Positions 6,812 to 54,656 of a DNA stretch of 64,000 nt are shown piece by piece (the first letter of the stretch is position 1; each line of letters starts with the position of its first letter). Source of the stretch: Blepharisma japonicum. Lineage: Eukaryota; Ciliophora; Heterotrichea; Heterotrichida; Blepharismidae. The DNA is taken from the NCBI GenBank assembly GCA_949751835.1, contig CATKHK010000090.1, positions 108,694 to 172,693 on the forward strand, in the 5' to 3' direction. A model generated the notes under the pieces. That model made no database searches and was not told the origin of the DNA. It saw only the letters and a program-made list of their open reading frames with translations. Made by a program: the position numbers and the translations under genes.

Positions 6812-9800
6812 TTAATCTTCAACTTCAACATACATAAAGGTATTTGAGCCTGGTACCACTGTAACAGCGTTATTATCACTATCATCTAGCTCGTCAGCCC
6901 AGTCCTCCAAAAGAGCAAGATAAGCTTCAGCTCCTTCTTCTGTGACTTCATATCCACTAATGGTGATAGATTCCAAATCATTATCATCCAAATAGTCAAT
7001 GACATCTTCTAACCAGTCAATGAAATCGTCAACTGTGTCTTCAGTCATAGTAAATGTACCGTCTTCATTTGACACAAGATCAGAAACAATATCATTATAA
7101 TCCTCTTGGAGGTCAAGTAAGTCTTCTTCAATATAAGTCTTTTCTCCAGTTGTCAAGTCTATTGTGGCGCCTTCTGCATCTTCATCTTCAAGCTCATCAA
7201 TAAAGTCTTCATTGGCTACTATTTTTTCGTCTAAATCTGCTGCTGTATATGTATTTGTGCCAACGACAATGGTTCCATCTTCAGGGAGTACGTCAAGAAC
7301 ATCTTCGATTTCGTCGATTTTATCTTCAGAGTCGTCAATAGTGGTGGTGATGCTACCAGTTTCAGCTTGGGCTGAGAATTCATTGTAGATTTCTTCTAAG
7401 TCTTCAGTTTCGTCTTTAAGGTCGACTTCATCTTCGTCAGCGTAGACTATAGAAGTTGCACCTTCTGAGTAGCTGGCTTCGACTGCGTCATTTTCATCAT
7501 AAGTTTTGACGAATTCGTCGACGTCTTCAAGGAGAGCCTCGACACCTGCAGTATCAAGGGTTAATTCTCCAACTGTGATGGTGTCACCTTCGTTCATTAA
7601 GTCTAAGACATCTTCTAAGTCATCTTGCAAGTCTTCTGCTTCTTCATCAGTAAGACTGCTGGTGGTTCCATCTTCAAGATGGTCATTATAAACGTCTTCT
7701 AAGTCTTCAACTTCTTCATCGAGGTCTTCAATTCTATCAGCTTCATCATCTACGAAGTCGCCTTCAGCAATTTCGTAAGTTCCAGTTGACAAGTTGACTT
7801 TGACAAGGTCGTCACCGTCTTCTTCCATATCGTCAAGCATGTTTTCTAAGCTGATAACAAGCTCGTCTACGTCAGAACTTGTGAGGTTGGCTCCAAGGAC
7901 AGTGCTGACTGTTTCGCCTTCTGCTAATTCTACGTCTTCAAGCCAGTCTAATAGCTCTTCGACATCTTCATAATCCATAAGAACGTAGTTTTCGTCAGTA
8001 GCTTGGACTTCATTTGCCTCTTGAATTTCTTCAGCTTCATCAAGAGTATCTTCGTCAGCAAGTACAATTTCGTCATCATCAGTAATTAAGAGAGCATCAG
8101 CATCATTTTCTTCAAGTTCGTCGAGGGTTTGTTCGATTTCGTTGTATTCCTCTTGGACTTCTGTATAAGTGTAGGTTACTCCACTTATTACAACAGTCTC
8201 GTCCTCATCCATGTATTCGAGAACGTCTGCATAGGCGTCAAGTATATCTTCGAGGGTATCTGCTTCAATAATTTGAGCGTTTCCAGTGTATTCTTCATAT
8301 GTGCTTTTTTCAATTTCTTCAAGCTCATCAATGGCATCATTTAATGCTTCTAAGTCCTCTTCCTCATCTTCATCAAGATCTTCTGTTTCTCCTGTTTCTG
8401 TTGGAACTAGAATATTGGTGGTAGTGGATGCTTCTACTTCAGCCTCATCTACGTCAATTTCGTCAATATCATCTTCATCAATTTCGTCAACATCATCTAC
8501 GTCAACTTCATCAATATCATCTTCGTCAACTTCGTCAATATCATCTTTGTCAACTTCATCAACGTCATCAACGTCAACTTCATCAATATCATCTATATCT
8601 ACTTCATCAATATCATCCTCATCCTCATCAACTTCATCCTCATCCATATCATTTTCGATATCAATAACTTCTTGATTGACTAAATATCCTTCATCTTCAA
8701 CTTCTTCTTTCAGATCATATTGGTCTTCATTTACATATGAAATTGTTTCAGTTCCCAAATTATAAGTAACTGACTCTGCGTCTTCTTCATCAAGATTATC
8801 AATATAGTTTTCTGCTTCTTGAATGAGTCCTTGAATATCTTCTTGTGTAAATGTCTGTTCTCCAACTAATACAGTATCTCCTTCTTCTAAGAGCTCATCT
8901 ACATCTTCTAAATCGTCAATTAAATCTTCAAGATCATCTTCAGTCTTTTCGATTTGTCCTTCAGCGATTTCTTCTTGGGTTTCATCATAATATTCTTGTA
9001 AGTCAGCGACTTCATCAACAAGGTCTTCTCTGTCTTCTTCTCCTTCTTCAATAGTATCACCATCATAAATGGTATAAGTCATGGTGGTGGTATCAATGGT
9101 GACGAGGTCTCCATCTTCCATATCGTCTTGGATTTCTTCTAAACTGACAATAAGCTCATTGACTTCTTCAGCAGTCTGGTCTTCTCCTACAATAGTATCA
9201 ATGGTTTCACCTTCTTCTAAGACTTCGACAGCTTCAGTGTAATAGTCGATTAATTCATCAACGTCATCAAGAGTAAGGGTTTGTGTTGTTTCGGTGGAGA
9301 CTAAGACTTCGTTGGCTTCATTGACGTCTTCGACTATTTCTGCTTCGTCTTCGTCTAGATAAAGAGGCCCACTTTCTGAGAAAGTTACGTATTCTGCGTC
9401 ATTTTCGTCGAGGTCTGCAAGAAGTTGGTCAGTGTTTTCAGTTGCGGCTTGAATGTCTTCATAAGTGAGGGTTTGGCCGTTAATTTCGACGGTGGCGGAC
9501 TCGTCGAGGTTCCAGAGGATTTCTTGGTAAGCTTCGTTTACGTCTTCTAAGGTGTCTTCGTCAAGTATCACGTAGCCATTTTCAGAGTTTTCAGCACTAA
9601 TATCTTCAAGCTCTTCAATTGAGTCTTCTAAGTCGTCAGCGTCGGTCATTTTCTCTTCGGCATTTTCTAAATTGTCTTCTTCGATTTCTTCTTGGGTATC
9701 TTCCATGCTTTCAGCGACATCTTCGTTACCTATTGAGCTTTCTTCTTCAGTAGAGGATTCTTCCTCTTCTGTGGATGAATCTGAAGTTGCTTGTTCTGTT

Positions 9801-10657
9801 TCTTCAGTATCATCTGTAGCTTCTACTTGAGTTAATGAACCTTCGACTTCCTCTTCTTCTTCTTCTTCAGTTTCTTCAACAGCTTCTTCAGTATCTTCTT
9901 GAGTCTCTGAGCTTTCAGCTGGTGCTTCTTCAACTGCTGCTTCTTCTTCAGCTGGTGCTTCTTCAGTTGCTGCTGCTTCTTCAGTTGCAGCTTCTTCTTC
10001 AGTTGCTGCTGCTTCTTCAGTTGCAGCTTCTTCTTCAGCTGGTGCTTCTTCTTCAGCTGGTGCTTCTTCAGTTGCTGCTGCTTCTTCAGTTGCAGCTTCT
10101 TCTTCAGCTGGTGCTTCTTCAACTGCTGCTTCTTCAGTTGCAGCTTCTTCTTCAGCTGGTGCTTCTTCTTCAGCTGGTGCTTCTTCAGTTGCTGCTGCTT
10201 CTTCAGTTGCTGCTTCTTCTTGAGTCTCCGAGCTTTGGGCTGCTTCTTCTTGAGTTTCTGAGCTTTGAGCTGCTTCTTCACTTGTTACTTCTTCTTGAGA
10301 GTCAGAGGTCTCTTCAGCGGCAGGTGCTTCTTGAGTTTCTGCAGAGCTTTCTTCAGTTGTTGTCTCTTCTGGGGTCGTTTCAGTAGATTCCGCAGTAAAA
10401 GTACTAGAATCCTGAGTTTCTGCTTCTGTGCTGGTATCAACTGATGACTCTTCAGCAGTTTGGGTCTCAGTTGGGGCATATTCTTGAGACTCAGCAGTCG
10501 TGGTCTCACCAGTGCTTTCACCTGCAGTTTCTTCTTGAGATAATTGAATGAAGATTTGGTTGTTATCTAATTTTTGCTGATTAATATCGCTTTTGATAGC
10601 TAGAGTTCCTTGGAAAAGTATCAAAATCCACAAGGCAATCCAAAGTTTCCTTGACAT
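6812..10657 (-). CDS. Secreted, extremely acidic repeat protein (1,281 aa)
   Basis: The frame is open without TGA from ATG 10657 to TAA 6812. Residues 1-20 form a clear signal peptide (SRKLWIALWILILFQGTLA), so the protein should enter the secretory pathway. Residues ~40-290 are Glu/Ala/Thr/Ser-rich, with tandem EEAATEEAPAEEEAP-type units at ~119-247. From ~340 the protein consists of about seven diverged ~85-90-residue units built on DTLEDVNEAYxEIL, a short beta pair such as VEINGQTLTYEDIQ, and LDENDAExVT. An Asp/Glu-only spacer (DEVDxDDIDEVD units, ~664-744) separates two blocks. Lys and Arg are almost absent. Function is unknown; a calcium-buffering granule, cortex or extracellular matrix protein is a guess from charge. 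No cysteine framework or membrane anchor is visible. Confidence 0.85.
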   Translation of the reverse strand: MSRKLWIALWILILFQGTLAIKSDINQQKLDNNQIFIQLSQEETAGESTGETTTAESQEYAPTETQTAEESSVDTSTEAETQDSSTFTAESTETTPEETTTEESSAETQEAPAAEETSDSQEEVTSEEAAQSSETQEEAAQSSETQEEAATEEAAATEEAPAEEEAPAEEEAATEEAAVEEAPAEEEAATEEAAATEEAPAEEEAPAEEEAATEEAAATEEEAATEEAAATEEAPAEEEAAVEEAPAESSETQEDTEEAVEETEEEEEEEVEGSLTQVEATDDTEETEQATSDSSTEEEESSTEEESSIGNEDVAESMEDTQEEIEEDNLENAEEKMTDADDLEDSIEELEDISAENSENGYVILDEDTLEDVNEAYQEILWNLDESATVEINGQTLTYEDIQAATENTDQLLADLDENDAEYVTFSESGPLYLDEDEAEIVEDVNEANEVLVSTETTQTLTLDDVDELIDYYTEAVEVLEEGETIDTIVGEDQTAEEVNELIVSLEEIQDDMEDGDLVTIDTTTMTYTIYDGDTIEEGEEDREDLVDEVADLQEYYDETQEEIAEGQIEKTEDDLEDLIDDLEDVDELLEEGDTVLVGEQTFTQEDIQGLIQEAENYIDNLDEEDAESVTYNLGTETISYVNEDQYDLKEEVEDEGYLVNQEVIDIENDMDEDEVDEDEDDIDEVDIDDIDEVDVDDVDEVDKDDIDEVDEDDIDEVDVDDVDEIDEDDIDEIDVDEAEVEASTTTNILVPTETGETEDLDEDEEEDLEALNDAIDELEEIEKSTYEEYTGNAQIIEADTLEDILDAYADVLEYMDEDETVVISGVTYTYTEVQEEYNEIEQTLDELEENDADALLITDDDEIVLADEDTLDEAEEIQEANEVQATDENYVLMDYEDVEELLDWLEDVELAEGETVSTVLGANLTSSDVDELVISLENMLDDMEEDGDDLVKVNLSTGTYEIAEGDFVDDEADRIEDLDEEVEDLEDVYNDHLEDGTTSSLTDEEAEDLQDDLEDVLDLMNEGDTITVGELTLDTAGVEALLEDVDEFVKTYDENDAVEASYSEGATSIVYADEDEVDLKDETEDLEEIYNEFSAQAETGSITTTIDDSEDKIDEIEDVLDVLPEDGTIVVGTNTYTAADLDEKIVANEDFIDELEDEDAEGATIDLTTGEKTYIEEDLLDLQEDYNDIVSDLVSNEDGTFTMTEDTVDDFIDWLEDVIDYLDDNDLESITISGYEVTEEGAEAYLALLEDWADELDDSDNNAVTVVPGSNTFMYVEVED
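8425..8665 (-). repeat. Asp/Glu/Val/Ile short tandem repeat inside the acidic protein
   Basis: On the coding strand this stretch encodes repeated DDIDEVD/DDVDEVD units. Codons for Asp vary (GAT, GAC), so the repeat looks maintained at protein level as well as arising by DNA expansion. Confidence 0.8.
9915..10300 (-). repeat. Glu/Ala-rich tandem repeat inside the acidic protein
   Basis: Reiterated EEAATEEAAATEEAPAEEE units. At DNA level it is a purine-pyrimidine-biased tract of gcttcttca-type units on the plus strand and is prone to length change. Confidence 0.8.
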
Positions 10658-17610: not shown

Positions 17611-20600
17611 ATGGGAGCATGCACTTCAAAGCAAGACGTTGCCACGCAGCGTACACTTAGACCCCAAGCAGGCGCAATAATGCCAGAGTTTTATTACCTA
17701 AATAGACATAAAAAGAAAATTCTTCACCTCCACCCTGATGGAAAAATCAAAAAAATCCAGTTTTCCGCAGGCATCAAGCTTCGTTCTGATTCAGCTGTCG
17801 GATATTTATCAAAGAACAAGATTATGCTAGCTGGAGGCAGCGATTCCTCTTCATGTCTTACCAATAAAGTTGTGATTGCCGATACTGAAACAATGAAGCT
17901 GACTAACCTCTGCAACCTACCAATACCATCCAAAGAAGGTAGTTTGTATGAACACAAGGGCTTGGTTTACTACGTAGGAGGATTGGCCGAGCCTGAGGAT
18001 GAAGTCGCATCTTCTACAGAAGAACCAGCACCATTAATGAGATTCAACTTAGAAGAAAATTCTTGGGAGTACTTCAAAAACGTAGAAGAAAACATCGCGA
18101 AAAACGAAATTACAGTCTTTCTCCAGAAAAAAGTGACAGAGAAAAAAGACGAAGAGAAAAAAGAAAAACCACACATGGATAAAGAATTCCCACTCAGTGG
18201 TCTACTATTACCAGGAACCTTCCTTTATAATGATAAAATTTACTTCGTAGGTGGTCACAAATTTGATGAACAGGGCAAAAATAAGCCAAATAAGAATGTT
18301 TACAGCTTGGAGTTGCCTTCTCTTGCCTTTAAAAAAGAACCTTTTTCACTTCCTATCAAAGCTGTTAAGCCTATCTGTGCAGTCAAAGGTGATGAAGTTA
18401 CCATTGTGGGTGGACTTGACCCAAAGACAAAAAAACCAAATTCTCAAAGCTACTTAGTCAATATGGCAGATTCTACACCTGAGGTAAAACTTCTCGAAGC
18501 CTTAAACTTTGAGTTCCCAGAAAACTACCCAGCTATAACCAGCACAAGTGCCCCAGTTTTTGTTTCTTTCCCTAAATTCGCCTTCAGAAGGCCAGGTCAA
18601 AAATCATGGCAGATTTTCAATATTGGAAGCAAAAAGAGAGACCAAGACACTCCAAGAACTGGCCCAAAAATGAAAGTTGTAAAGAAAATTGAAGCTGGAG
18701 AGCCTAAGGAAATAAATCAAAAATTAGCAACTCCAGATGGAGGAGCGGCAATTGAATTAAAGGCTGAGCCATACGTCCCAACTAAAAGAAAAAGCTCATC
18801 TTCAAGCTCTGGCTCAAGCTCAAGCATTAGCGACAGCGTTGATCCAACGAAAAGGCACAAAAAACACCACAAGCCAAAAATTGAAGGAGGTGTAGATCTT
18901 AATGTAAATTTACCTAAAAAGAAAAAGGGCTCAAGTAGCAGCAGTAGCAGCGATGGTAAAAAGAAAAAACCTAAAGCCGAAGTCAAAATCGGCGGCGATA
19001 TTAAAGGAGGCATTGCAGGGCCTAAAGTTGATATTAACCTCAACAAAAAGAAAAAAGGAAGTAGCTCTTCTAGCAGCAGTGATGGAAAAAAGAAAGGAAA
19101 AGTCGAAGCTAAAGTCGACTTGAAAGGGCCAAAAGTAAATGTTGCAGCTCCTAAGCCAGAAATTAAAGTTGGCATCAAAGGCAAAAAATCATCAAGCTCG
19201 AGCTCCGGCTCTGAAGGAAAGAAAAAAGGCAAGGTCGAAATTAAAGGAGAAGCAACTAAACTACCTGGTGGAAAAGTAGATATTAAAGGGCCAAAGGTAG
19301 GTATTAAAGTCGATAAATCAAGCAGCAGCTCTAGTGGCAGCGAAAAAGGCAAAGCAAAAATAGGCATTAAAGGAGATGCAAAGTTACCATCAGGAAAAAT
19401 AGACGTTAAAGCTCCAGAAATTAAAAGAGGAAGATCTTCAAGTAGCAGCTCAAGTGGCAGTGGAAAAGGCAAAGGAAAAGTAGCAGTTAAAGGTGACGCT
19501 AAGCTGCCAGGAGGAAAAGTAGATCTTAAAGCTCCAGGAATCAAAGCAGACTTGAAGCTTGGAGGCAAAAAGGGGTCATCAAGCAGTAGCTCTGAAGGAA
19601 AAGGAAAAGCTAAAGTAGACCTCAAAGGAGATGCTAAGTTACCATCAGGAAAAGTGGATGTTAAAGCTCCAGGAATTAGAATTGGCGGAAGGGGATCATC
19701 CAGCAGTAGCTCAAGTGACGACAAAAAGAAGGTTGGCGTAAAAATTGATGCCCCTAAAGTTCCTGCAGGGAAAATCGATGTCAAATTAGCCAAAAAAGGC
19801 TCCTCAAGCAGTAGCAGCAGCTCAAGTGAAGGGCAAGCTAAAAAGAAAGTTGAAGTAAAAGCTGACGTTCCAAAAGCGCCTTCAGCTAAAATTATGTTGC
19901 CAAAACAAACTGGAAGAATTATGCTTCCTAAAGGACAAACTGGAAAAGTAGAAAATAAACCTCCAGAAGCTAAAGTAGAAATTAAGCCAATAGGAGTTAA
20001 CCTAAAAATTGGAGGCAAAAAATCATCAAGCAGCAGTAGCTCCAGTGACGATAAAAAGAAAGCGAAAATCGGAATTAAAGGAGATGCTAAACTGCCATCA
20101 GGAAATATAGACATTAAACCACCAGCAGTTAATATTGGAGGCAAAAAGAAGTCCTCCAGCTCAAGCTCCAGCGATGAAAAAGGCAAAGCTAAATTAGATC
20201 TCAAAGGAGATGCAAAATTACCATCAGGAAAAGTTGATATCAAAGCTCCAGCAATTAAAATAGGTGGAAAGAAGAGCTCATCTAGCAGCTCCAGTGATGG
20301 AAAGAAAAAAGCCGGAATTGCAGTCAAAGCTGACGTTCCAAAGGTTCCATCAGGCAAAGTTGATATTAAAGCACCTGGTCTTAAAATTGGAGGAAAGAAA
20401 GGTTCTTCCTCATCTAGTAGCTCAAGTGATGGTGGCAAGAAGAAAGCAGGAATTGCAGTCAAAGTTGACGGTCCAAAAGTCCCAGCAGCCAAAGTCGATG
20501 TCAAAGGTGAAGCTCCGAAGGCTCCTTCTGGCAAAGTTGATATTAAAGCTCCTGGCATTAAAATTGGAGGAAAGAAAGGATCTTCATCTTCAAGCAGCTC

Positions 20601-23600
20601 TAGCGATAGTGGCAAGAAGAAAGCAGGACTTGGAATCAAAGTGGACGCTCCAAAGGTTCCAGCAGCTAAAGTTGAAGTCAAAGGAGACGCTCCAAAAGCT
20701 CCATCTGGAAAAGTTGATATCAAAGCTCCAGCAATTAAAGGTGGAATTGACATCAAAGGAAAGAAAGGATCTTCTTCATCTAGCAGCTCAAGTGACAGCG
20801 GAAAAAAGAAAGCAGGCTTTGGAATAAAAGTTGATCCAAAGGTCCCAGCTGCAAAAGTTGAAGTAAAAGGTGATGCTCCAAAGGTCCCTACAGGAAAAGT
20901 AGAAGCCAAAGGTGATGCTCCAAAGGTCCCGACAGGAAAAGTTGATATTAAAGCTCCAGGAATAAAAATTGGAGGAAAGAAAGGATCTTCATCATCAAGC
21001 AGCTCAAGCGATAGTGGCAAAAAGAAAGCAGGAATTAAAGTAGACGGTCCTAAAGTTCCAGCAGTCAAAGTTGAAGTTAAAGGAGATGCTCCAAAAGCTC
21101 CTTCAGGCAAAGTTGACGTCAAAGCTCCAGCAATCAAAGGTGGGCTTGATATCAAAGGAAAAAAAGGATCCTCATCATCAAGCAGTTCTAGCGAAGATAA
21201 TAAAAAGAAGGGTGGAATTGGAATCAAAGTTGATGCTCCTAAAGTTCCAGCAGGAAAAGTTGATGTCAAAGCTCCTGGATTAAAGATTGGAGGAAAGAAA
21301 GGCTCTTCATCATCAAGCAGCTCTAGCGAAGATAACAAGAAGAAAGGAGGAATCGGAATTAAAGTAGACGCTCCTAAAGTTCCAGCTGCCAAAGTTGATG
21401 TAAAAGGTGAAGCTCCTAAAGCTCCATCAGGAAAAGTTGATATCAAAGCCCCTGCAATTAAAGGAGGAATTGATGTCAAAGGAAAGAAAGGCTCCTCATC
21501 ATCAAGCAGCTCTAGCGAAGATAATAAGAAGAAAGGAGGAATCGGAATTAAAGTAGACGCTCCTAAAGTTCCAGCCGCAAAGGTTGATGTAAAAGGAGAT
21601 GCTCCTAAAGCTCCTTCTGGCAAAGTCGATGTCAAAGCTCCTGCAATTAAAGGAGGAATTGATGTCAAAGGAAAGAAAGGCTCCTCATCTTCAAGCAGCT
21701 CTAGTGAAGACAATAAGAAAAAACCAGGAATCGGAATCAAAGTTGATGGTCCAAAAGTTCCAGCCGCAAAGGTTGATGTAAAAGGAGATGCTCCTAAAGC
21801 TCCTTCTGGCAAAGTCGATGTCAAAGCTCCTAGTGGCAAAGTCGATCTTAAGATTGGAGGAAAGAAAGGATCTTCATCATCAAGTAGCTCTAGCGATAGT
21901 GGAAAGAAAAAAGGAATTGCAGTCAAAGTTGACGCTCCTAAAGTTCCGGCAGCTAAAGTTGATGTAAAAGGAGACGCTCCTAAAGTACCTACAGGCAAAG
22001 TTGATGTTAAAGCTCCTGGTATCAAAATTGGAGGAAAGAAAGGATCTTCATCTTCAAGCAGTTCTAGTGAAGATAACAAGAAGAAAGGAGGAATTGGAAT
22101 CAAAATAGACGCTCCAAAAGTCCCAGCAGCAAAAGTTGATGTCAAAGGCGATGCACCAAAAGTTCCTTCTGGAAAAGTTGACGTTAAAGCTCCAGGATTA
22201 AAGATTGGAGGAAAGAAAGGTTCTTCATCATCAAGTAGCTCTAGCGAAGATAACAAAAAGAAGGGTGGAATTGGTATCAAAGTAGATGCTCCTAAAGTTC
22301 CAGCTGCCAAAGTTGAAGTTAAAGGAGATGCTCCTAAAGCCCCATCAGGAAAAGTTGATGTAAAAGCTCCAGGATTGAAGATTGGAGGAAAGAAAGGATC
22401 TTCATCATCAAGCAGTTCAAGTGAAGATAACAAGAAAAAGGGTGGAATCGGAATTAAAGTCGATGCTCCAAAGGTCCCAGCTGCCAAAGTTGATGTAAAA
22501 GGAGATGCTCCTAAAGTCCCATCTGGAAAAGTCGATGTCAAAGCTCCTGCAATTAAAGGAGGAATTGATGTCAAAGGAAAGAAAGGCTCTTCATCTTCAA
22601 GTAGTTCCAGCGAAGACAACAAAAAGAAGGGTGGAATCGGAATTAAAGTAGACGCTCCTAAAGTCCCAGCTGCCAAAGTTGATGTTAAAGGAGAAGCACC
22701 TAAAGCCCCATCAGGAAAAGTTGATGTTAAAGCTCCTGCAATTAAAGGAGGAATTGATGTAAAAGGTAAGAAAAGATCATCCTCATCCTCCAGCAGCTCT
22801 AGTGAAGACAATAAGAAAAAACCAGGAATCGGAATTAAAGTAGACGCCCCTAAAGTCCCAGCAGGAAAAGTTGATGTAAAAGCTCCAGCAATAAAAGGAG
22901 GAGTTGATATCAAAGGAAAGAAAGGCTCTTCATCATCGAGCAGTTCCAGCGAAGATAACAAAAAGAAGGGTGGAATCGGAATTAAAGTCGATGCTCCAAA
23001 GGTCCCAGCTGCCAAAGTTGATGTAAAAGGAGATGCTCCAAAAGTCCCATCAGGAAAAGTCGATGTCAAAGCTCCTGCAATTAAAGGAGGAATTGATATC
23101 AAAGGAAAGAAAAAATCTTCCTCATCATCAAGCAGCTCCAGCGAAGATAATAAGAAGAAGGCAGGAGTCGGAATCAAAGTTGATGCTCCAAAGGTTCCAG
23201 CAGCTAAAGTTGAAGTCAAAGGAGATGCTCCTAAAGCTCCTTCTGGCAAAGTCGATGTAAAAGCCCCTAGTGGAAAAGTTGATCTTAAGATTGGAGGAAA
23301 GAAAGGCTCTTCATCATCAAGTAGCTCTAGCGAAGATAACAAGAAGAAAGCTGGAATCGGAATTAAAGTTGATGCTCCAAAAGTCCCAGCTGCCAAAGTT
23401 GATGTAAAAGGAGATGCTCCTAAAGTCCCATCTGGAAAAGTCGATGTAAAAGCTCCAGCAATAAAAGGAGGAGTTGATATCAAAGGAAAGAAAGGCTCTT
23501 CATCATCAAGTAGCTCTAGCGAAGATAACAAGAAGAAAGCTGGAATCGGAATTAAAGTCGATGCTCCAAAAGTCCCAGCTGCCAAAGTTGATGTAAAAGG

Positions 23601-26472
23601 AGAAGCTCCAAAAGTCCCATCAGGAAAAGTCGATGTCAAAGCTCCTGCAGTTAAAGGAGGAATTGATGTCAAAGGAAAGAAAAAATCTTCCTCATCATCA
23701 AGCAGTTCCAGCGAAGACAACAAGAAGAAAGCAGGAGTCGGAATCACAGTAGACGCTCCTAAAGTCCCAGCTCCAAAAGTTGATGTAAAAGGCGAGACAC
23801 CTAAAGCCCCATCTGTAAAAGTTGATGTCAAAGCTCCTGCAATTAAAGGAGGAGTTGATCTCAAAGGCAAGAAAAGATCATCCTCATCCTCCAGCAGTTC
23901 CAGTGAAGATAATAAGAAGAAGGGTGGAATCGGAATTAAAGTAGACGCTCCTAAAGTTCCAGCTGCCAAAGTTGATGTTAAAGGAGAAGCACCTAAAGCT
24001 CCATCAGGAAAAGTCGATGTCAAAGCTCCAGCCATTAAAGGAGGAATTGATATCAAAGGAAAGAAAAAATCTTCTTCATCCTCAAGTAGCTCCAGCGAAG
24101 ATAATAAAAAGAAAGGAGGAATCGGAATTAAAGTTGATGCTCCAAAAGTTCCAGCTGCCAAAGTTGATGTAAAAGGAGAAGCTCCTAAAGTCCCATCAGG
24201 AAAAGTCGATGTCAAAGCTCCTGCAATTAAAGCAGGCATTGATGTCAAAGGAAAGAAAAAATCTTCCTCATCCTCCAGCAGCTCCAGCGAAGACAACAAA
24301 AAGAAGGGTGGAATCGGAATTAAAGTCGATGCTCCAAAAGTTCCAGCTGCCAAAGTTGATGCAAAAGGAGAAGCTCCAAAAGTCCCATCTGGAAAAGTCG
24401 ATGTCAAAGCTCCTGCAATTAAAGGAGGAATTGATGTCAAAGGAAAGAAAGGCTCCTCATCATCAAGCAGTTCCAGCGAAGACAACAAAAAGAAGGGTGG
24501 AATCGGAATTAAAGTAGACGCTCCTAAAGTCCCTGCCGCTAAAGTTGATGTTAAAGGAGAAGCACCTAAAGCCCCATCAGGAAAAGTCGATGTCAAAGCT
24601 CCTGCAATCAAAGCAGGCATTGATGTAAAAGGTAAGAAAAGATCATCCTCATCCTCCAGCAGTTCCAGCGAAGACAACAAGAAGAAAGCAGGAGTCGGAA
24701 TCAAAGTAGACGCTCCTAAAGTTCCAGCTGCCAAAGTTGATGTTAAAGGTCCAGAAGTTAAAGGCAAAGCTGATGTCAAAGCAGATGTTAAAGCACCTGC
24801 CCTCAAAATTGGAGGAAAGAAAAAATCTTCATCAAGCAGCTCTTCAAGTGACAGTGATAAGAAAAAGAAAGTCGGAGTCAACATCAAAGCAGAAGCTCCT
24901 AAAGTACCATCAGCTAAAGTCGACGTAAAAGGCCCATCCGCAAAGGCTGACGTAAATCTTCCTAAAGCTCCAGAAATTAAAGCTGGAGCTAAAGTTGGTC
25001 TCAAAAAAGGCTCTTCAAGCAGCAGTAGCTCTAGTGAAGACAACAAAAAGAAAGTCGCAGCCAAGGTGGAGCCACCTAAAGCACCATCAGCCAAAGTTGA
25101 TGTAAAAGCTCCTGCAATTAAAGGAGGCATAAACATCGGAGGAAAAAAGAAAGCCTCATCAAGTAGCAGCTCAAGCAGCGAAGACAATAAAAAGAAAGCT
25201 GGAATTGCCATTAAGGCAGAACCACCTAAGGTTCCATCAGCAAAGGTTGACGTCAAGGCTGATGTCAAAGCTCCAGCAGGAAAAGCTGATGTCAAAGCCC
25301 CAGGTATTGGAATTAATATTGGAGGAAAGAAAAAAGCATCCTCAAGCAGCAGCAGTTCTAGCAGTGAAGACAATAAGAAAAAGGCTGGCATAGCAATTAA
25401 AGCACAGCCACCAGCGTTACCTAAAGCTGATATAAAGGTTGAAGGACCGAAAGGAAAAGTTGAAGCTCCTAAAGCACCTGCAGGAAAAGCAGCAATAAAT
25501 ATAGGTGGAAAGAAAAAGTCCTCTTCAAGTAGCAGTTCAAGTGATAGTGGAAAGAAAAAGAAAGCTGGAATCGCCATCAAGGGTGATGCTCCAAAACTTC
25601 CAGGTTTAAAGGCTGACGTAAAAGGCCCTGCCATAAAAGCTGATATCAAAGCTGGAAAGAAAAAATCTTCAAGCAGCAGTTCAAGTGATGGAAGTGTCAA
25701 ACTAAAAGCTGATTTACCAAAGGCAAAAGTCCAATCTGAGCTTCCAAGTGCTCCAAAAGCTGAAGTCAAAGCAGAAGTTAAAGCAGAACCTCCTAAGAAA
25801 TCAGGAGGCATGAGCAATTTCACAAGCTCCCTAATAAAAGCCATTAAAAGTAAGAAATCAGAATCCAGCAGCTCAAGCTCAGATGATAAGAAAAAAGGTA
25901 AAAAAGTCGAAGTCAAAGCCAAAGCTCCTGAGGCACCTGTAATGCAAGCAGAAGCTAAAGTGCCTAAATTCAAAGCCGAAGCAAAAGTAGGAAAGAAAGG
26001 GTCAAGCAGCAGTAGTAGCAGCAGCAGTGATTCTGATACCAATAAGAAGGGCAAGTTTAAAGGACAGCTTCCAGGGCTAAAGGCTGGTGCTAGTGTAGAA
26101 GCACCAAAAGCAAATATTCAAGCAGGCGTTAAGGCTGATGTAGGAGGAAAGAAAAAGAAAGCATCATCTTCCTCAAGCAGCTCTGATAGTGACAGAAAAA
26201 AGAAAGCTGACGTCAAGGTTGGAGCTAATATTAATGTAAAGGCAGGAGCAAAAGCAGCTGGCAAAAAGAAATCATCAAGCAGTAGCAGCAGTAGTGATAG
26301 TGATTCAAAGAAAGGAAAAGGGAAAGGAGCAGTAGAATTAAAAGGAGGAGTTAAAGCTGATGCTGGTGTAAAGGCTGGCGGAAAGGTTGGAGCAGATGTC
26401 AAAGTTGAGGTACCTAAAGTTGATGCTGGAATCAAAATTGGAGGAAAAGGAGGGAAATTCAAGCTCGGATAA
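17611..26472 (+). CDS. Giant acylation-motif Kelch-like protein with >40 polySer/Lys repeats (2,953 aa)
   Basis: The frame is open from ATG 17611 to TAA 26472; both Trp codons seen are TGG. MGACTSKQDVATQ is a candidate myristoyl/palmitoyl signal (Gly2, Cys4). Residues ~25-330 are a Kelch-like domain (IMLAGGSDSSSC, VYYVGGLAE, IYFVGGHKF, VTIVGGLDPKTK) shared with the protein at 11538-13217. From ~393 to the end the protein alternates a serine tract, usually eight residues flanked by GKKG and EDNKKK, with a Lys/Pro/Val spacer such as GIGIKVDAPKVPAAKVDVKG and APSGKVDVKAPAIKGG. The spacer recalls AHNAK repeats, and the Ser-acidic/Lys alternation recalls Nopp140-type CK2 targets; neither proves homology. 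Tracts followed by E/D would suit CK2. A membrane-anchored, heavily phosphorylated, disordered scaffold is my inference. Confidence 0.88.
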   Translation: MGACTSKQDVATQRTLRPQAGAIMPEFYYLNRHKKKILHLHPDGKIKKIQFSAGIKLRSDSAVGYLSKNKIMLAGGSDSSSCLTNKVVIADTETMKLTNLCNLPIPSKEGSLYEHKGLVYYVGGLAEPEDEVASSTEEPAPLMRFNLEENSWEYFKNVEENIAKNEITVFLQKKVTEKKDEEKKEKPHMDKEFPLSGLLLPGTFLYNDKIYFVGGHKFDEQGKNKPNKNVYSLELPSLAFKKEPFSLPIKAVKPICAVKGDEVTIVGGLDPKTKKPNSQSYLVNMADSTPEVKLLEALNFEFPENYPAITSTSAPVFVSFPKFAFRRPGQKSWQIFNIGSKKRDQDTPRTGPKMKVVKKIEAGEPKEINQKLATPDGGAAIELKAEPYVPTKRKSSSSSSGSSSSISDSVDPTKRHKKHHKPKIEGGVDLNVNLPKKKKGSSSSSSSDGKKKKPKAEVKIGGDIKGGIAGPKVDINLNKKKKGSSSSSSSDGKKKGKVEAKVDLKGPKVNVAAPKPEIKVGIKGKKSSSSSSGSEGKKKGKVEIKGEATKLPGGKVDIKGPKVGIKVDKSSSSSSGSEKGKAKIGIKGDAKLPSGKIDVKAPEIKRGRSSSSSSSGSGKGKGKVAVKGDAKLPGGKVDLKAPGIKADLKLGGKKGSSSSSSEGKGKAKVDLKGDAKLPSGKVDVKAPGIRIGGRGSSSSSSSDDKKKVGVKIDAPKVPAGKIDVKLAKKGSSSSSSSSSEGQAKKKVEVKADVPKAPSAKIMLPKQTGRIMLPKGQTGKVENKPPEAKVEIKPIGVNLKIGGKKSSSSSSSSDDKKKAKIGIKGDAKLPSGNIDIKPPAVNIGGKKKSSSSSSSDEKGKAKLDLKGDAKLPSGKVDIKAPAIKIGGKKSSSSSSSDGKKKAGIAVKADVPKVPSGKVDIKAPGLKIGGKKGSSSSSSSSDGGKKKAGIAVKVDGPKVPAAKVDVKGEAPKAPSGKVDIKAPGIKIGGKKGSSSSSSSSDSGKKKAGLGIKVDAPKVPAAKVEVKGDAPKAPSGKVDIKAPAIKGGIDIKGKKGSSSSSSSSDSGKKKAGFGIKVDPKVPAAKVEVKGDAPKVPTGKVEAKGDAPKVPTGKVDIKAPGIKIGGKKGSSSSSSSSDSGKKKAGIKVDGPKVPAVKVEVKGDAPKAPSGKVDVKAPAIKGGLDIKGKKGSSSSSSSSEDNKKKGGIGIKVDAPKVPAGKVDVKAPGLKIGGKKGSSSSSSSSEDNKKKGGIGIKVDAPKVPAAKVDVKGEAPKAPSGKVDIKAPAIKGGIDVKGKKGSSSSSSSSEDNKKKGGIGIKVDAPKVPAAKVDVKGDAPKAPSGKVDVKAPAIKGGIDVKGKKGSSSSSSSSEDNKKKPGIGIKVDGPKVPAAKVDVKGDAPKAPSGKVDVKAPSGKVDLKIGGKKGSSSSSSSSDSGKKKGIAVKVDAPKVPAAKVDVKGDAPKVPTGKVDVKAPGIKIGGKKGSSSSSSSSEDNKKKGGIGIKIDAPKVPAAKVDVKGDAPKVPSGKVDVKAPGLKIGGKKGSSSSSSSSEDNKKKGGIGIKVDAPKVPAAKVEVKGDAPKAPSGKVDVKAPGLKIGGKKGSSSSSSSSEDNKKKGGIGIKVDAPKVPAAKVDVKGDAPKVPSGKVDVKAPAIKGGIDVKGKKGSSSSSSSSEDNKKKGGIGIKVDAPKVPAAKVDVKGEAPKAPSGKVDVKAPAIKGGIDVKGKKRSSSSSSSSSEDNKKKPGIGIKVDAPKVPAGKVDVKAPAIKGGVDIKGKKGSSSSSSSSEDNKKKGGIGIKVDAPKVPAAKVDVKGDAPKVPSGKVDVKAPAIKGGIDIKGKKKSSSSSSSSSEDNKKKAGVGIKVDAPKVPAAKVEVKGDAPKAPSGKVDVKAPSGKVDLKIGGKKGSSSSSSSSEDNKKKAGIGIKVDAPKVPAAKVDVKGDAPKVPSGKVDVKAPAIKGGVDIKGKKGSSSSSSSSEDNKKKAGIGIKVDAPKVPAAKVDVKGEAPKVPSGKVDVKAPAVKGGIDVKGKKKSSSSSSSSSEDNKKKAGVGITVDAPKVPAPKVDVKGETPKAPSVKVDVKAPAIKGGVDLKGKKRSSSSSSSSSEDNKKKGGIGIKVDAPKVPAAKVDVKGEAPKAPSGKVDVKAPAIKGGIDIKGKKKSSSSSSSSSEDNKKKGGIGIKVDAPKVPAAKVDVKGEAPKVPSGKVDVKAPAIKAGIDVKGKKKSSSSSSSSSEDNKKKGGIGIKVDAPKVPAAKVDAKGEAPKVPSGKVDVKAPAIKGGIDVKGKKGSSSSSSSSEDNKKKGGIGIKVDAPKVPAAKVDVKGEAPKAPSGKVDVKAPAIKAGIDVKGKKRSSSSSSSSSEDNKKKAGVGIKVDAPKVPAAKVDVKGPEVKGKADVKADVKAPALKIGGKKKSSSSSSSSDSDKKKKVGVNIKAEAPKVPSAKVDVKGPSAKADVNLPKAPEIKAGAKVGLKKGSSSSSSSSEDNKKKVAAKVEPPKAPSAKVDVKAPAIKGGINIGGKKKASSSSSSSSEDNKKKAGIAIKAEPPKVPSAKVDVKADVKAPAGKADVKAPGIGINIGGKKKASSSSSSSSSEDNKKKAGIAIKAQPPALPKADIKVEGPKGKVEAPKAPAGKAAINIGGKKKSSSSSSSSDSGKKKKAGIAIKGDAPKLPGLKADVKGPAIKADIKAGKKKSSSSSSSDGSVKLKADLPKAKVQSELPSAPKAEVKAEVKAEPPKKSGGMSNFTSSLIKAIKSKKSESSSSSSDDKKKGKKVEVKAKAPEAPVMQAEAKVPKFKAEAKVGKKGSSSSSSSSSDSDTNKKGKFKGQLPGLKAGASVEAPKANIQAGVKADVGGKKKKASSSSSSSDSDRKKKADVKVGANINVKAGAKAAGKKKSSSSSSSSDSDSKKGKGKGAVELKGGVKADAGVKAGGKVGADVKVEVPKVDAGIKIGGKGGKFKLG
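18790..26440 (+). repeat. Tandem coding repeat array (polySer + KVDVK spacer), >40 units
   Basis: Units are ~120-240 bp. The central block (~20.4-24.7 kb) is most homogeneous, with fixed Ser8 tracts, and the flanks are more diverged, as expected if unequal exchange acts in the middle. Serine codons are mixed (TCA, TCT, TCC, AGC, AGT), so the serine tracts are not simple trinucleotide expansions. Confidence 0.9.
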
Positions 26473-50826: not shown

Positions 50827-51690
50827 CTAAATTCTTGCTTGTATCCATACTACAATCCTATCAAGAATCTGAGGGATTTGAGGCTCTAGAGAAATTAAAT
50901 GATATCAATTTTCATCATATGCAAACTCTTTATCTGTAGAACCAGAATTTCGGAAAAATTGTCTAGAGGCCTCAATAGGGCACACTTCATCATGCTCACC
51001 ATGGAACAAAATAAAAGGTGTTCTCACCTGAGGGGCTTGCTGCTGAGCCTCACTCATTCCTCTTGAAAATGCATCTCCTGTAGCAGGGCTTGTTTTGCCT
51101 AAATAAGTGTCAGGATTTTTGGTCCACCACTCTAGAATGCTAGGATTACTTGAAACAATCACCATGTCTTTAAGGTCAAATGGTTCATCAGTTCATTTCT
51201 GGGCATAAAATTTTGGAGTTAAACCTAATGCGGGGGCAAGTAAAATCATTCCTCTAATTACTTCAGGAATTCTTAGAGAAATTCCTACACATGTTAGCCC
51301 ACCCATACTTTCTCCAATAATAAATACAGGAAGGCTTTCATCAAACTGTTTTCTTGTTTTTTCAATAAATTCGATACCTAAATTAATATTTTCGTTTATG
51401 TCTCTCAATTCTCCTCTTGCACCTCCGCTTTTTCCATGTCCTTCTTGATCAAACGCAAAAACTGCAAAATTTGACTGTTCAAATCTTCTGGCTAGGTGAG
51501 AATAACTGCTTGAAGCTGATAGCCAACAATGGAAAATAAAGATCAAGGCACTAGGATTGCCTGAATCATGTCTAAAAGTAGTCAACTTTATCCCTTGGCT
51601 TGATTGAAGGTCAAGCCAATTTGTGACATAAAAACATGTTCCAGCACAAGGAATAATTCCTTGAAATTCTTCATCAGACCATTCTGACAT
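50827..51690 (-). CDS. Alpha/beta hydrolase, array copy 3 (287 aa)
   Basis: ATG 51690 (MSEWSDEEFQGIIPCAG) to TAG 50827, with TGA=Trp at YAQKWTDEPF (51193) and YDENWYHLIS. Triad: Ser in GESMGG, Asp in GEHDEV, His in WYHLISLE. The loop between strands is shorter than in copies 1 and 2 (ALGLTPKFYAQKW), a feature shared with copy 4 and the pseudogenes, which form one subgroup. Confidence 0.9.
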
Positions 51691-52059: not shown

Positions 52060-52920
52060 TTATATCCTTGCTTGGATCCATTCTACAATTCTATTAAGAA
52101 CCTGTGGAATTCCAGCCTCTAAAGATATAAGATGATATAAATTTTCATCATATGCAAATTCTTTATCAGTAGCTCCAGAATTTCGGAAAAATTCTCTAGA
52201 CATTTCAACAGGGACTACTTCATCATGAGCTCCATGAATTAAAAGAAAAGGTGCTCTTACTTGTGGAGCTTGCTGGTGAACATCAGTAATTCCTCTTAAG
52301 AATGCATCTCTTGTAGAAGAGCTTGTCTTTCCTTCATAGGTATCAGGATTTATAGTCCACCATTCATCAGCTTTTGGATTGCTTGAAGACATTACCATAT
52401 CTTTTGGGTCGATTGGATCATCGGTTCATTTCTGAGCATAAAATTTTGGGGTTGAGCCTAATGCAGGGCCAAGCAAAATCATGCCTCGGATTACTTCAGG
52501 AATTCTTAGAGAAATTCCTATACATGTCAATCCACCCATGCTTTCTCCAACAATAAATACAGGGAGACTTTCAGAGTATTGTTCTCTTGTTTTCTGTATA
52601 AACTCAACACCTAGTCTAATATTTTCGTTTATATCTCTAACCTCCCCTCTTGCACCTCCGCTTTTTCCATGTCCTTCTTGGTCAAATGCAAAAGCTGCGA
52701 AACTTGACTGTGCAAATCGATGGGCAAAATGAGAATAGCTACTTGAAGCTGATAGTCAACAATGAAAAATGAATACTAAAGCACTAGGGTTTTCAGTATT
52801 ATGCCTATATGTATGAAGCTTTATTCCTTGGCTTGATATCAGTTCAAGCCAATTTTCCTCAGAAAATGAAACTCCAGCACAAGGGATGTGGCCTTGGAAT
52901 TCATCAACCCATCCTGACAT
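52060..52920 (-). CDS. Alpha/beta hydrolase, array copy 4 (286 aa)
   Basis: ATG 52920 (MSGWVDEFQGHIPCAG) to TAA 52060, with TGA=Trp at FHCWLSASSS and YAQKWTDDPI. Triad: Ser in GESMGG, Asp in GAHDEV, His in LYHLISLE. Closest to copy 3 over the whole length (SASSSYSH, FDQEGHGKSGGARGE), so this pair is the most recent intact duplication. Confidence 0.9.
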
Positions 52921-53252
52921 TTTTTTAGTTAGCAGAATTATGTAATATAATTTTCAAGCGAATTATCATTTCATAAAGGAAAATTATTTCTTTATTTGCT
53001 GCATAATTTTCAAATTATCTTTATTAGTTAGGTATTTAATACAACTATTTCATTTGCGCAGGCAAATTTCTTAATAGGTATTTCAACTTAAATAGAACTC
53101 AAAAAAATTAAATAAACTTCAATTTTATGATTCCATCTGCATCTTCTCTAGCAGATTGTAAAAATATTTTTTTATTTATATTTTAACTAACTTAGTGACG
53201 TTTTTTATATTAATAATATAATTAGATAGCTTTAATTAAACTTATCTTCAAG
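52921..53252. other. AT-rich intergenic within the hydrolase array
   Basis: Nothing recognisable in 332 bp; presumed promoter of copy 4 and remains of the neighbouring decayed copy. Confidence 0.5.
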
Positions 53253-53410
53253 CTAAATTCTTGTAGTGTCCATGCAACAACTCTATCAAGAACTTTTGGA
53301 ATCTAGGCTTCCAAAGAAATTAAATGATATAAATTTTCTGTAACGCCAGAATTTCTAAAAAAATTTCTTGATGCTTCTACAGGGACTACTTCATCATGGC
53401 ATGCATGAAA
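53253..53410 (-). pseudogene. Hydrolase pseudogene, C-terminal fragment
   Basis: The minus strand reads FHACHDEVVPVEASRNFF then RNSG, a deletion of the DKEFAYD stretch, ENLYHLISLEA, then an in-frame TAG and IPKVLDRVVAW. It is the last ~55 codons of a copy 3/4-type gene with a deletion and a stop. Just upstream (53411 on) the homology ends at TATA followed by sequence matching the insertion in the next pseudogene. Confidence 0.85.
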
Positions 53411-53699
53411 TATACTTTTTAGAAAAATTTTATCAATTATAAATATTCTAATCAAATTAATAATATGATTAAAGCATAAATAAAATATAACAACTAATAC
53501 AAAAATTAATTTTTTCTAAAAATATTATATTGAGCAATTAAATGTAAAATTTAAAATGATTAAAATTCTAATTTTCTATTAATAATTAATCAAACTCCGG
53601 TTTTCTCTTTGGAACAGATGAGTATAATTCCTTTGGTATTAATAATTCAAATGAAATTAGCATCACTTTGAGAATATTAAATAAATATGATTTTTCTCT
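53411..53699. other. Very AT-rich spacer
   Basis: No gene remnant was recognised. Its first ~25 bp (tatactttttagaaaaattt) match one end of the TA-bounded insertion at 53881-53981. Confidence 0.5.
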
Positions 53700-54656
53700 A
53701 GATAAATTCTGGCTTGCATCCACCCCAAAGCTCTTTAAAGAATCTGATGAATTTGAGGCTCAAAAGAAATTATATGATATAAACTTTCTCATGTGCAAAC
53801 TCTTTATCTGCAGCTCCAGAATTTCGGAAAAATTCTCTAGAAGAGTCAATAGGAACTGCTTCATCATGATCTCCATGAAATATACCTTTTTGGAAAATTT
53901 TAATTAGTTTCTTCACGAATCCATTAAAACGAGATAAATATATATTAAAAATAAGGAGTATTATTAAAAAAAATTATAATAAAATGAAAGAGGTTCTTAC
54001 TAAAGGAGCCTGCTTCTGAAAATTATAATTCCCCTTGTAAATGCATCTCCTGAAGTCCGGCTAGCTTTTCCTAGGTAAGTGTCAGGATTTTCTATTCACC
54101 ACTCAAGCGTCTTTGGGTTACTTGAAATAATCACTATATCTTTGGGGTCAAATTGCTCATCAGTTCAAAATTGTAAAAGTACTTTTGTTGTTGTGCCTAA
54201 CGCAGGAGCAAGCAAAATCATGCCCCTAATTACTTCGGAAATTCTAAGTGAAATTCCTATGCATGTTAACCTCATACTTTCTCCAATAATAAGCACCGGA
54301 AGACCTTCAGGGTATTGCTCTCGTGCTTTTTGGATAAACTCGACACCTAAACTGGCATTTTCGTTTATATCTCTTGCCTCTGCTCTTTTACCCCCACTTT
54401 TCCCATGCCTTTCTTAGTCAAATGAAAAATATGCAAAATTTGGCTGTGCAAATTTATGGGCGAAGTAAGAAAACCTACTTGAAGCTGACATATAGCAGTG
54501 GAAAATAAAGGCAAGGGCACTAGGATTTTCAATATTATATCTAAAAGTATGAAGCTTAATTTCTTGACTTGATTGCAGTTCAAGTCAGTTTTCTTAAGGA
54601 AAAGAAACTCCAGCACAAGGAATTAAACCTTGATATTTCTCAAATCACTCTGACAT
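53700..54656 (-). pseudogene. Hydrolase pseudogene, nearly full length, interrupted by a 99-bp insertion
   Basis: From ATG 54656 (MSEWFEKYQGLIPCAGVSF) the copy 3/4-type sequence is followed almost to its end, but with TAA in the first 25 codons (SFP*ENWLEL), TAA for Gln in FD*ERHGKSGG, loss of GG in the nucleophile elbow (GESMRLTC), a frameshift after DAFTRGI, the TA-bounded insertion between TSFIL and FHGDHDEAVP, and further frame damage in the C-terminal part. It cannot make an active enzyme. Confidence 0.9.
53881..53981. mobile_element. 99-bp TA-bounded insertion, IES-like
   Basis: Inside the pseudogene, AT-rich DNA without hydrolase homology lies between catgaaaTA (53875-53882) and TAaaatgaaag (53980-53990). 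Removing one TA plus the interior gives catgaaaTAaaatgaaag, which matches the uninterrupted coding of the intact copies. TA-bounded precise insertions are the hallmark of ciliate internal eliminated sequences. One terminus recurs at the neighbouring fragment. Confidence 0.5.

Follow-up and report, generated by a model that had tools for sequence, protein, structure and literature searches.

The window analysed here, a stretch of 64,000 bp, is the terminal part of contig C90 (172,693 bp) from an assembly of 45.19 Mb and 224 contigs, and it carries four tandem copies of a hydrolase gene, all on the minus strand. Copy A (50827..51690) and copy B (52060..52920) are intact serine hydrolases of the Hydrolase_4/S33 type. 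Copy C (~53690..54655, ends approximate) is a decayed serine hydrolase of the same type, part of which is also covered by a Hydrolase_4 match, and it carries an inserted block. Relic D (~53243..53432, ends approximate) consists of the last third of a hydrolase copy and about 20 bp corresponding to the left end of that block. A protein search with copy A returned 14 matching stretches genome-wide, five of them within A to D. The lesions of copy C, as seen in the alignment to A and B, comprise three TAA codons in the ancestral frame, two 1-bp deletions, a 3-bp deletion within the GESMGG motif and loss of the normal stop. A short coding-like stretch (53590-53690) lies between D and C, and a DNA search with 53225-53700 found no further place matching this part.

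The start of C90 consists of CCCTAACA repeats, the published Blepharisma telomere unit (PMC9942806), and TGA encodes Trp in C90 genes; the contig therefore originates from a Blepharisma. A telomere is absent from the other end of C90, which is also the end of the window, so that C90 is not telomere-to-telomere; 64 sequences of that kind have been described for B. stoltei (PMC9942806). One germline MITE end published in the Blepharisma IES paper had 0 exact matches in the 45.2 Mb assembly, and stop-to-stop frames of at least 200 codons cover 75% of the window (both strands counted). These two observations point to a macronuclear-type assembly, which looks cleared of internal eliminated sequences (IESs) as a macronuclear one would be; for the block site itself we infer this state. 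On the same grounds germline contamination of the assembly is not supported, with the reservation that C90 has a telomere at one end only and that low-quality 'cruft' contigs are mentioned in the paper on Blepharisma IESs (PMC9942856).

The inserted block and its junctions

In the contig self-comparison the alignment of copy C with A and B was broken in two by an extra 99-100 bp in C. The block occupies 53881..53979, has a length of 99 bp if one of the two junction repeats is included, and has a GC content of 17%. Direct reading together with the self-comparison thus bears out the first-pass annotation, which had described a 99-bp AT-rich block bounded by TA in a decayed hydrolase. Its boundary needs correction in one respect: TA is indeed present at both ends, but rather than a bare TA the actual direct repeat, as read from the junctions, is AATA, two bases longer (left copy 53879..53882, right copy 53978..53981). 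Once the block is removed, copy C aligns across the site without a gap to both A and B, in agreement with the earlier claim that removal restores the coding, though C is dead by its other lesions. The site is empty in A and B, and in B a TA, part of a TTA codon, occupies the homologous position. The block length is divisible by three, and a TAA in frame stands at the start of the block.

Owing to the AATA repeat, the block can be placed in five equivalent registers. Compared with B these five are the best ones, with 47 of 60 flank bases matching and 46 in the next register, and compared with A they tie with one repeat-less register at 42 of 60; the placement of the register would accordingly seem to rest on little. 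The frequency of such junctions by chance was assessed with 99-mers of similar GC content from the same contig, inserted randomly in A, B or the 5' part of C. Among 100,000 random insertions a TA-containing junction repeat arose in 3.5% and one of at least 4 bp with TA in 1.0%, while the share that acquired a TA-containing repeat was 7.0% for insertions no more than 4 bp away from the real site.

A terminal inverted repeat of the block was not found (6/20, P 0.71), and GT..AG ends are absent from all five registers. When the genome was searched with the block at E values up to 10, at least one match was obtained and only the block itself was listed. The pattern of its left end is not in excess, with 56 matches at up to three mismatches versus 87 for the reversed control. 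A mobile repeat or Tc1/mariner-type MITE is therefore unsupported, given the one match, the missing inverted repeat and the count for the left-end pattern. A second, excised copy of gene C was not present among the best-scoring candidates in the assembly, where only the filled site was found.

Relic D shares one end of the block

Beyond what the first-pass annotation had reported, copy C is not the only carrier of block sequence: relic D shares the left end of the block. The similarity between D and C runs past the boundary of gene and block, and the next 20 bp (53413..53432 in D, 53883-53902 in the block) agree at 17 of 20 positions, with the boundary at the same codon position. No other of the ~345,000 positions on both strands of the 172,693-bp contig reaches 17/20, and such agreement arises at a frequency of ~1e-5 when AT-rich 20-mers are paired at random. 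The joint pattern of C and D, allowing two mismatches, occurs at nine places genome-wide, C and D among them. In unanchored local alignments to D, 34 of 5000 shuffles scored as well as the first 30 bp of the block and 124 of 2000 as well as the whole block. The match is limited to the first 20-25 bp: nothing is recognisable in D beyond ~25 bp, and the remainder of the block was not found there (404 of 500 shuffles score as well). Likewise, an extension of D into the 5' part of the gene gave no clear signal, with 370, 65 and 225 of 500 shuffles reaching the score for A, B and C, respectively.

Between C and D the shared block end differs at 3 of 20 positions and the gene part at 44 of 160 (Fisher p 0.29). 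A diverged interior would be expected of an old IES, because in Paramecium, among IESs shared by recent duplicates (~1 synonymous substitution per site), divergence puts more than 90% beyond the reach of BLASTN (PMC3464196). A better-kept block end would be expected as well, if that end were constrained.

Relationships and age of the copies

Over 160 shared columns C and D are identical at 116 (72.5%), A and D at 119 and B and D at 122 (74-76% for A and B with D); the values are 125 for both A-C and B-C and 124 for A-B. Since its identity to C is not above that to A or B, D is not a recent copy of C. Among five sites that divide the copies two against two, four unite B with D and one unites C with D. 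In trees of A to D with outgroup E, all nine topologies have AU p > 0.05, the top three pairing B with D; two of the nine are discarded, but by RELL proportions only. A clade of C and D is not rejected, with AU p 0.23-0.35 over its three topologies.

The ratio dN/dS amounts to 0.26 for C versus A, 0.23 for C versus B and 0.19 for A versus B (283/288 codons, stops excluded), with dS between copies of ~0.8. Changes private to C number 31.2 synonymous and 32.8 nonsynonymous. Judged from these substitutions, C has been under coding constraint for most of its history. A rough mixture estimate puts the neutral share of the C branch at ~10%, with a range of -7% to 32%. Had C and D split after the death of C, the probability of 44 or more differences in 160 would be 2e-13 at a neutral fraction of 10.5%, 4e-5 at 21% and 0.049 at 32%, so that at the last value a late split appears barely excluded. 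As D shares the block end although it resembles A and B at least as much as C, and as C was constrained, the insert probably predates the split of C and D.

Other length differences on the contig

As a control, the junctions of eight kinds of paralog length difference were read, all on C90. Differences in tandem repeats (window 19.8-25 kb) were left out, their junctions being ambiguous. A TA-containing junction repeat is present in three of the eight, namely the 99-bp block (AATA), an insert of 164 bp (TAACATTT) and a difference of 52 bp (ATAT), and none is present in the other five (263-266 bp in several copies, 268, 143, 335 and 104 bp). TA repeats are therefore not the rule among the length differences of this contig. 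Most of the other differences are also diverged, and the best register is often ahead by one base. The 52-bp difference lies outside the window (C90:22445-22500), between two paralogous stretches, and its ATAT junction repeat is 4 bp long.

The 164-bp insert (C90:34470-34633, outside the window) lies between TA-containing 8-bp repeats and interrupts a minus-strand gene that matches Kelch_6 and is open apart from this insert. Removing the insert lengthens the longest stop-to-stop frame of this kelch-like gene from 296 to 434 codons, and at nine paralogous sites the insert is absent. A piece of it, about 46 bp long, recurs at C7:35685-35732 (88%), between open frames as far as these are readable. 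The 8-bp duplication also fits other transposons. In a protein-level scan of 251 C90 open frames, which missed copy C, the kelch-like gene was the sole interrupted gene found.

Two repetitive frames of the window may be recorded here. A plus-strand frame of 2953 codons (17611-26472) is built of long tandem repeats, many units being near 190 bp; it has ~42% GC and a strong AT skew, and its opposite strand is open for 2645 codons. A minus-strand frame of 1281 codons (6812-10657) has short tandem repeats with units of 18 to 72 bp and ~36-42% GC.

Discussion

The block in copy C may be an old IES-type element whose excision is now absent or incomplete, a reading that we hold tentatively and at slightly less than an even chance. 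A TA-bounded germline insertion of the IES type would have entered the hydrolase lineage before C and D separated. While the ancestor of C worked, the insert would have been removed, the simplest route being excision of the DNA, exact at the TA-containing repeats, as the macronucleus developed. The block would now be carried in the assembled genome in C and in the remnant of D. Two causes are conceivable: a failure of the excision signals, which would kill the gene, or an absence of selection for excision in a gene that had died earlier. Past excision and the order of retention and gene death are what we infer from the comparison of the copies.

The main support for this reading seems to be the chain that leads back to the common ancestor of C and D: if that ancestor carried the insert and the gene was under selection, the insert must have been removed from either DNA or RNA, and splicing is an unlikely route because the splice ends are missing. 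The chain is weakest in the estimated date of gene death, in the shortness (20 bp) of the match in D and in that gene conversion may have acted locally. In favour of an IES count the 4-bp repeat containing TA, the single genome match and the end shared by D; against it count the missing inverted repeat, the filled site as the only one found, the short reach of the match in D, the wide range of the neutral share of C, the clade of C and D that the trees do not reject and the loosely fixed register. The interpretation in the first-pass annotation is thus supported in part: the designation as IES-like is sustained by the TA repeat, length, AT-richness, the empty site in two paralogs and the lack of splice signals, and it is not sustained with respect to inverted repeats. 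The retention in macronuclear DNA proposed there may apply, and the insert may or may not have been what killed the gene. According to the published account, about three quarters of Blepharisma IESs are bounded by TA-containing repeats, 10,778 of 39,799 fall within 65-115 bp, the short ones being largely non-repetitive, and length peaks are spaced by 10-11 bp, with 65, 72 and 110 named in that range (PMC9942856). Terminal inverted repeats are described there as common, neither of a single motif nor universal, so that their absence from the block lowers the claim without excluding it.

The IES could even be older than the whole family of A, B, C and D. The germline version of B, which has a TA at the site, and perhaps that of A would then still carry and excise it, and the dead copies C and D would have stopped doing so; we regard this combined proposal as doubtful.

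An insertion that was never excised, be it by a TA-targeting element such as a Tc1/mariner-type MITE or its relic or by another route, may instead have killed the common ancestor of C and D. This requires the fewest events, since a single insertion leaves both carriers dead and both non-carriers intact, and it accords with trees in which the clade of C and D is not rejected. It conflicts with the constraint on C over most of its branch and with the number of differences between C and D, which exceeds the expectation for two copies dead since their split at each of the three neutral fractions considered; a MITE in particular would have to lack an inverted repeat and be known from one copy. We consider a never-excised insertion rather unlikely.

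The insert might also have arisen in C or D and then passed to the other by gene conversion, or by a duplication whose breakpoint fell inside the block, in either case after the death of C. The two copies are adjacent, the similarity of D ends ~20-25 bp into the block, and the shared end is less diverged than the gene part, albeit not significantly. However, ~10 bp into the gene, counted from the boundary, D and C differ once more, for which reason an unchanged copied tract would be shorter than ~40 bp, and such a transfer appears improbable.

Chance alone, with a commonplace filler inserted in a pseudogene and its TA-containing repeat a coincidence, could draw on the accumulation of indels in pseudogenes, on an AT-rich setting that favours short repeats, as the random insertions close to the real site illustrate, and on a weakly fixed register. 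It would have to account for the 4-bp TA repeat together with the same end at the same codon in a second relic, and we deem it very unlikely. An unusually long intron, to which the gap-free alignment after removal might have pointed, is hardly conceivable and is ruled out as a spliceosomal one by the lack of GT..AG in any of the five registers, published introns of B. stoltei being, moreover, predominantly 15 and 16 bp long (PMC9942806).

If the block is an IES, a single tandem array has the same old insert in its dead copies and lacks it in its intact ones, and nature offers here a test of cause and effect: IES retention may kill genes, or the death of a gene may release its IESs from selection for excision. 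Should the IES be older than the family, the array would show, within one genome, how a gene's loss of function and the end of excision accompany each other. If the block is not an IES, it is no more than an old pseudogene insertion of an ordinary kind.

Comparison with known systems

Tc1/mariner-type MITEs with TA target duplication resemble the block in having TA at both ends and in being short and non-coding, whereas the block has no inverted repeat and one copy was found in the assembly. The block can also be set beside the short 'periodic' TA-bound IESs described for B. stoltei (PMC9942856). Unlike many of these, the block is without an inverted repeat and is known here from a filled site in an assembly alone, and its GC content is 17% compared with 33.3% for the published IESs overall; like them, it has a TA-containing repeat and a length within 65-115 bp, is intragenic and not repeated, and faces a clean empty site in paralogs.

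In Paramecium, ohnologous IESs, shared by gene duplicates, have been described, as have IESs that became part of an exon or entered the MAC reference assembly (PMC3464196). The Paramecium cases concern whole-genome duplicates, whereas the block sits in local tandem paralogs, of which two dead copies carry the insert (D partly) and two intact copies lack it, as viewed from the assembly only. Common to both systems would be the same position in duplicates, a fast-diverging interior and the loss of excision in one copy.
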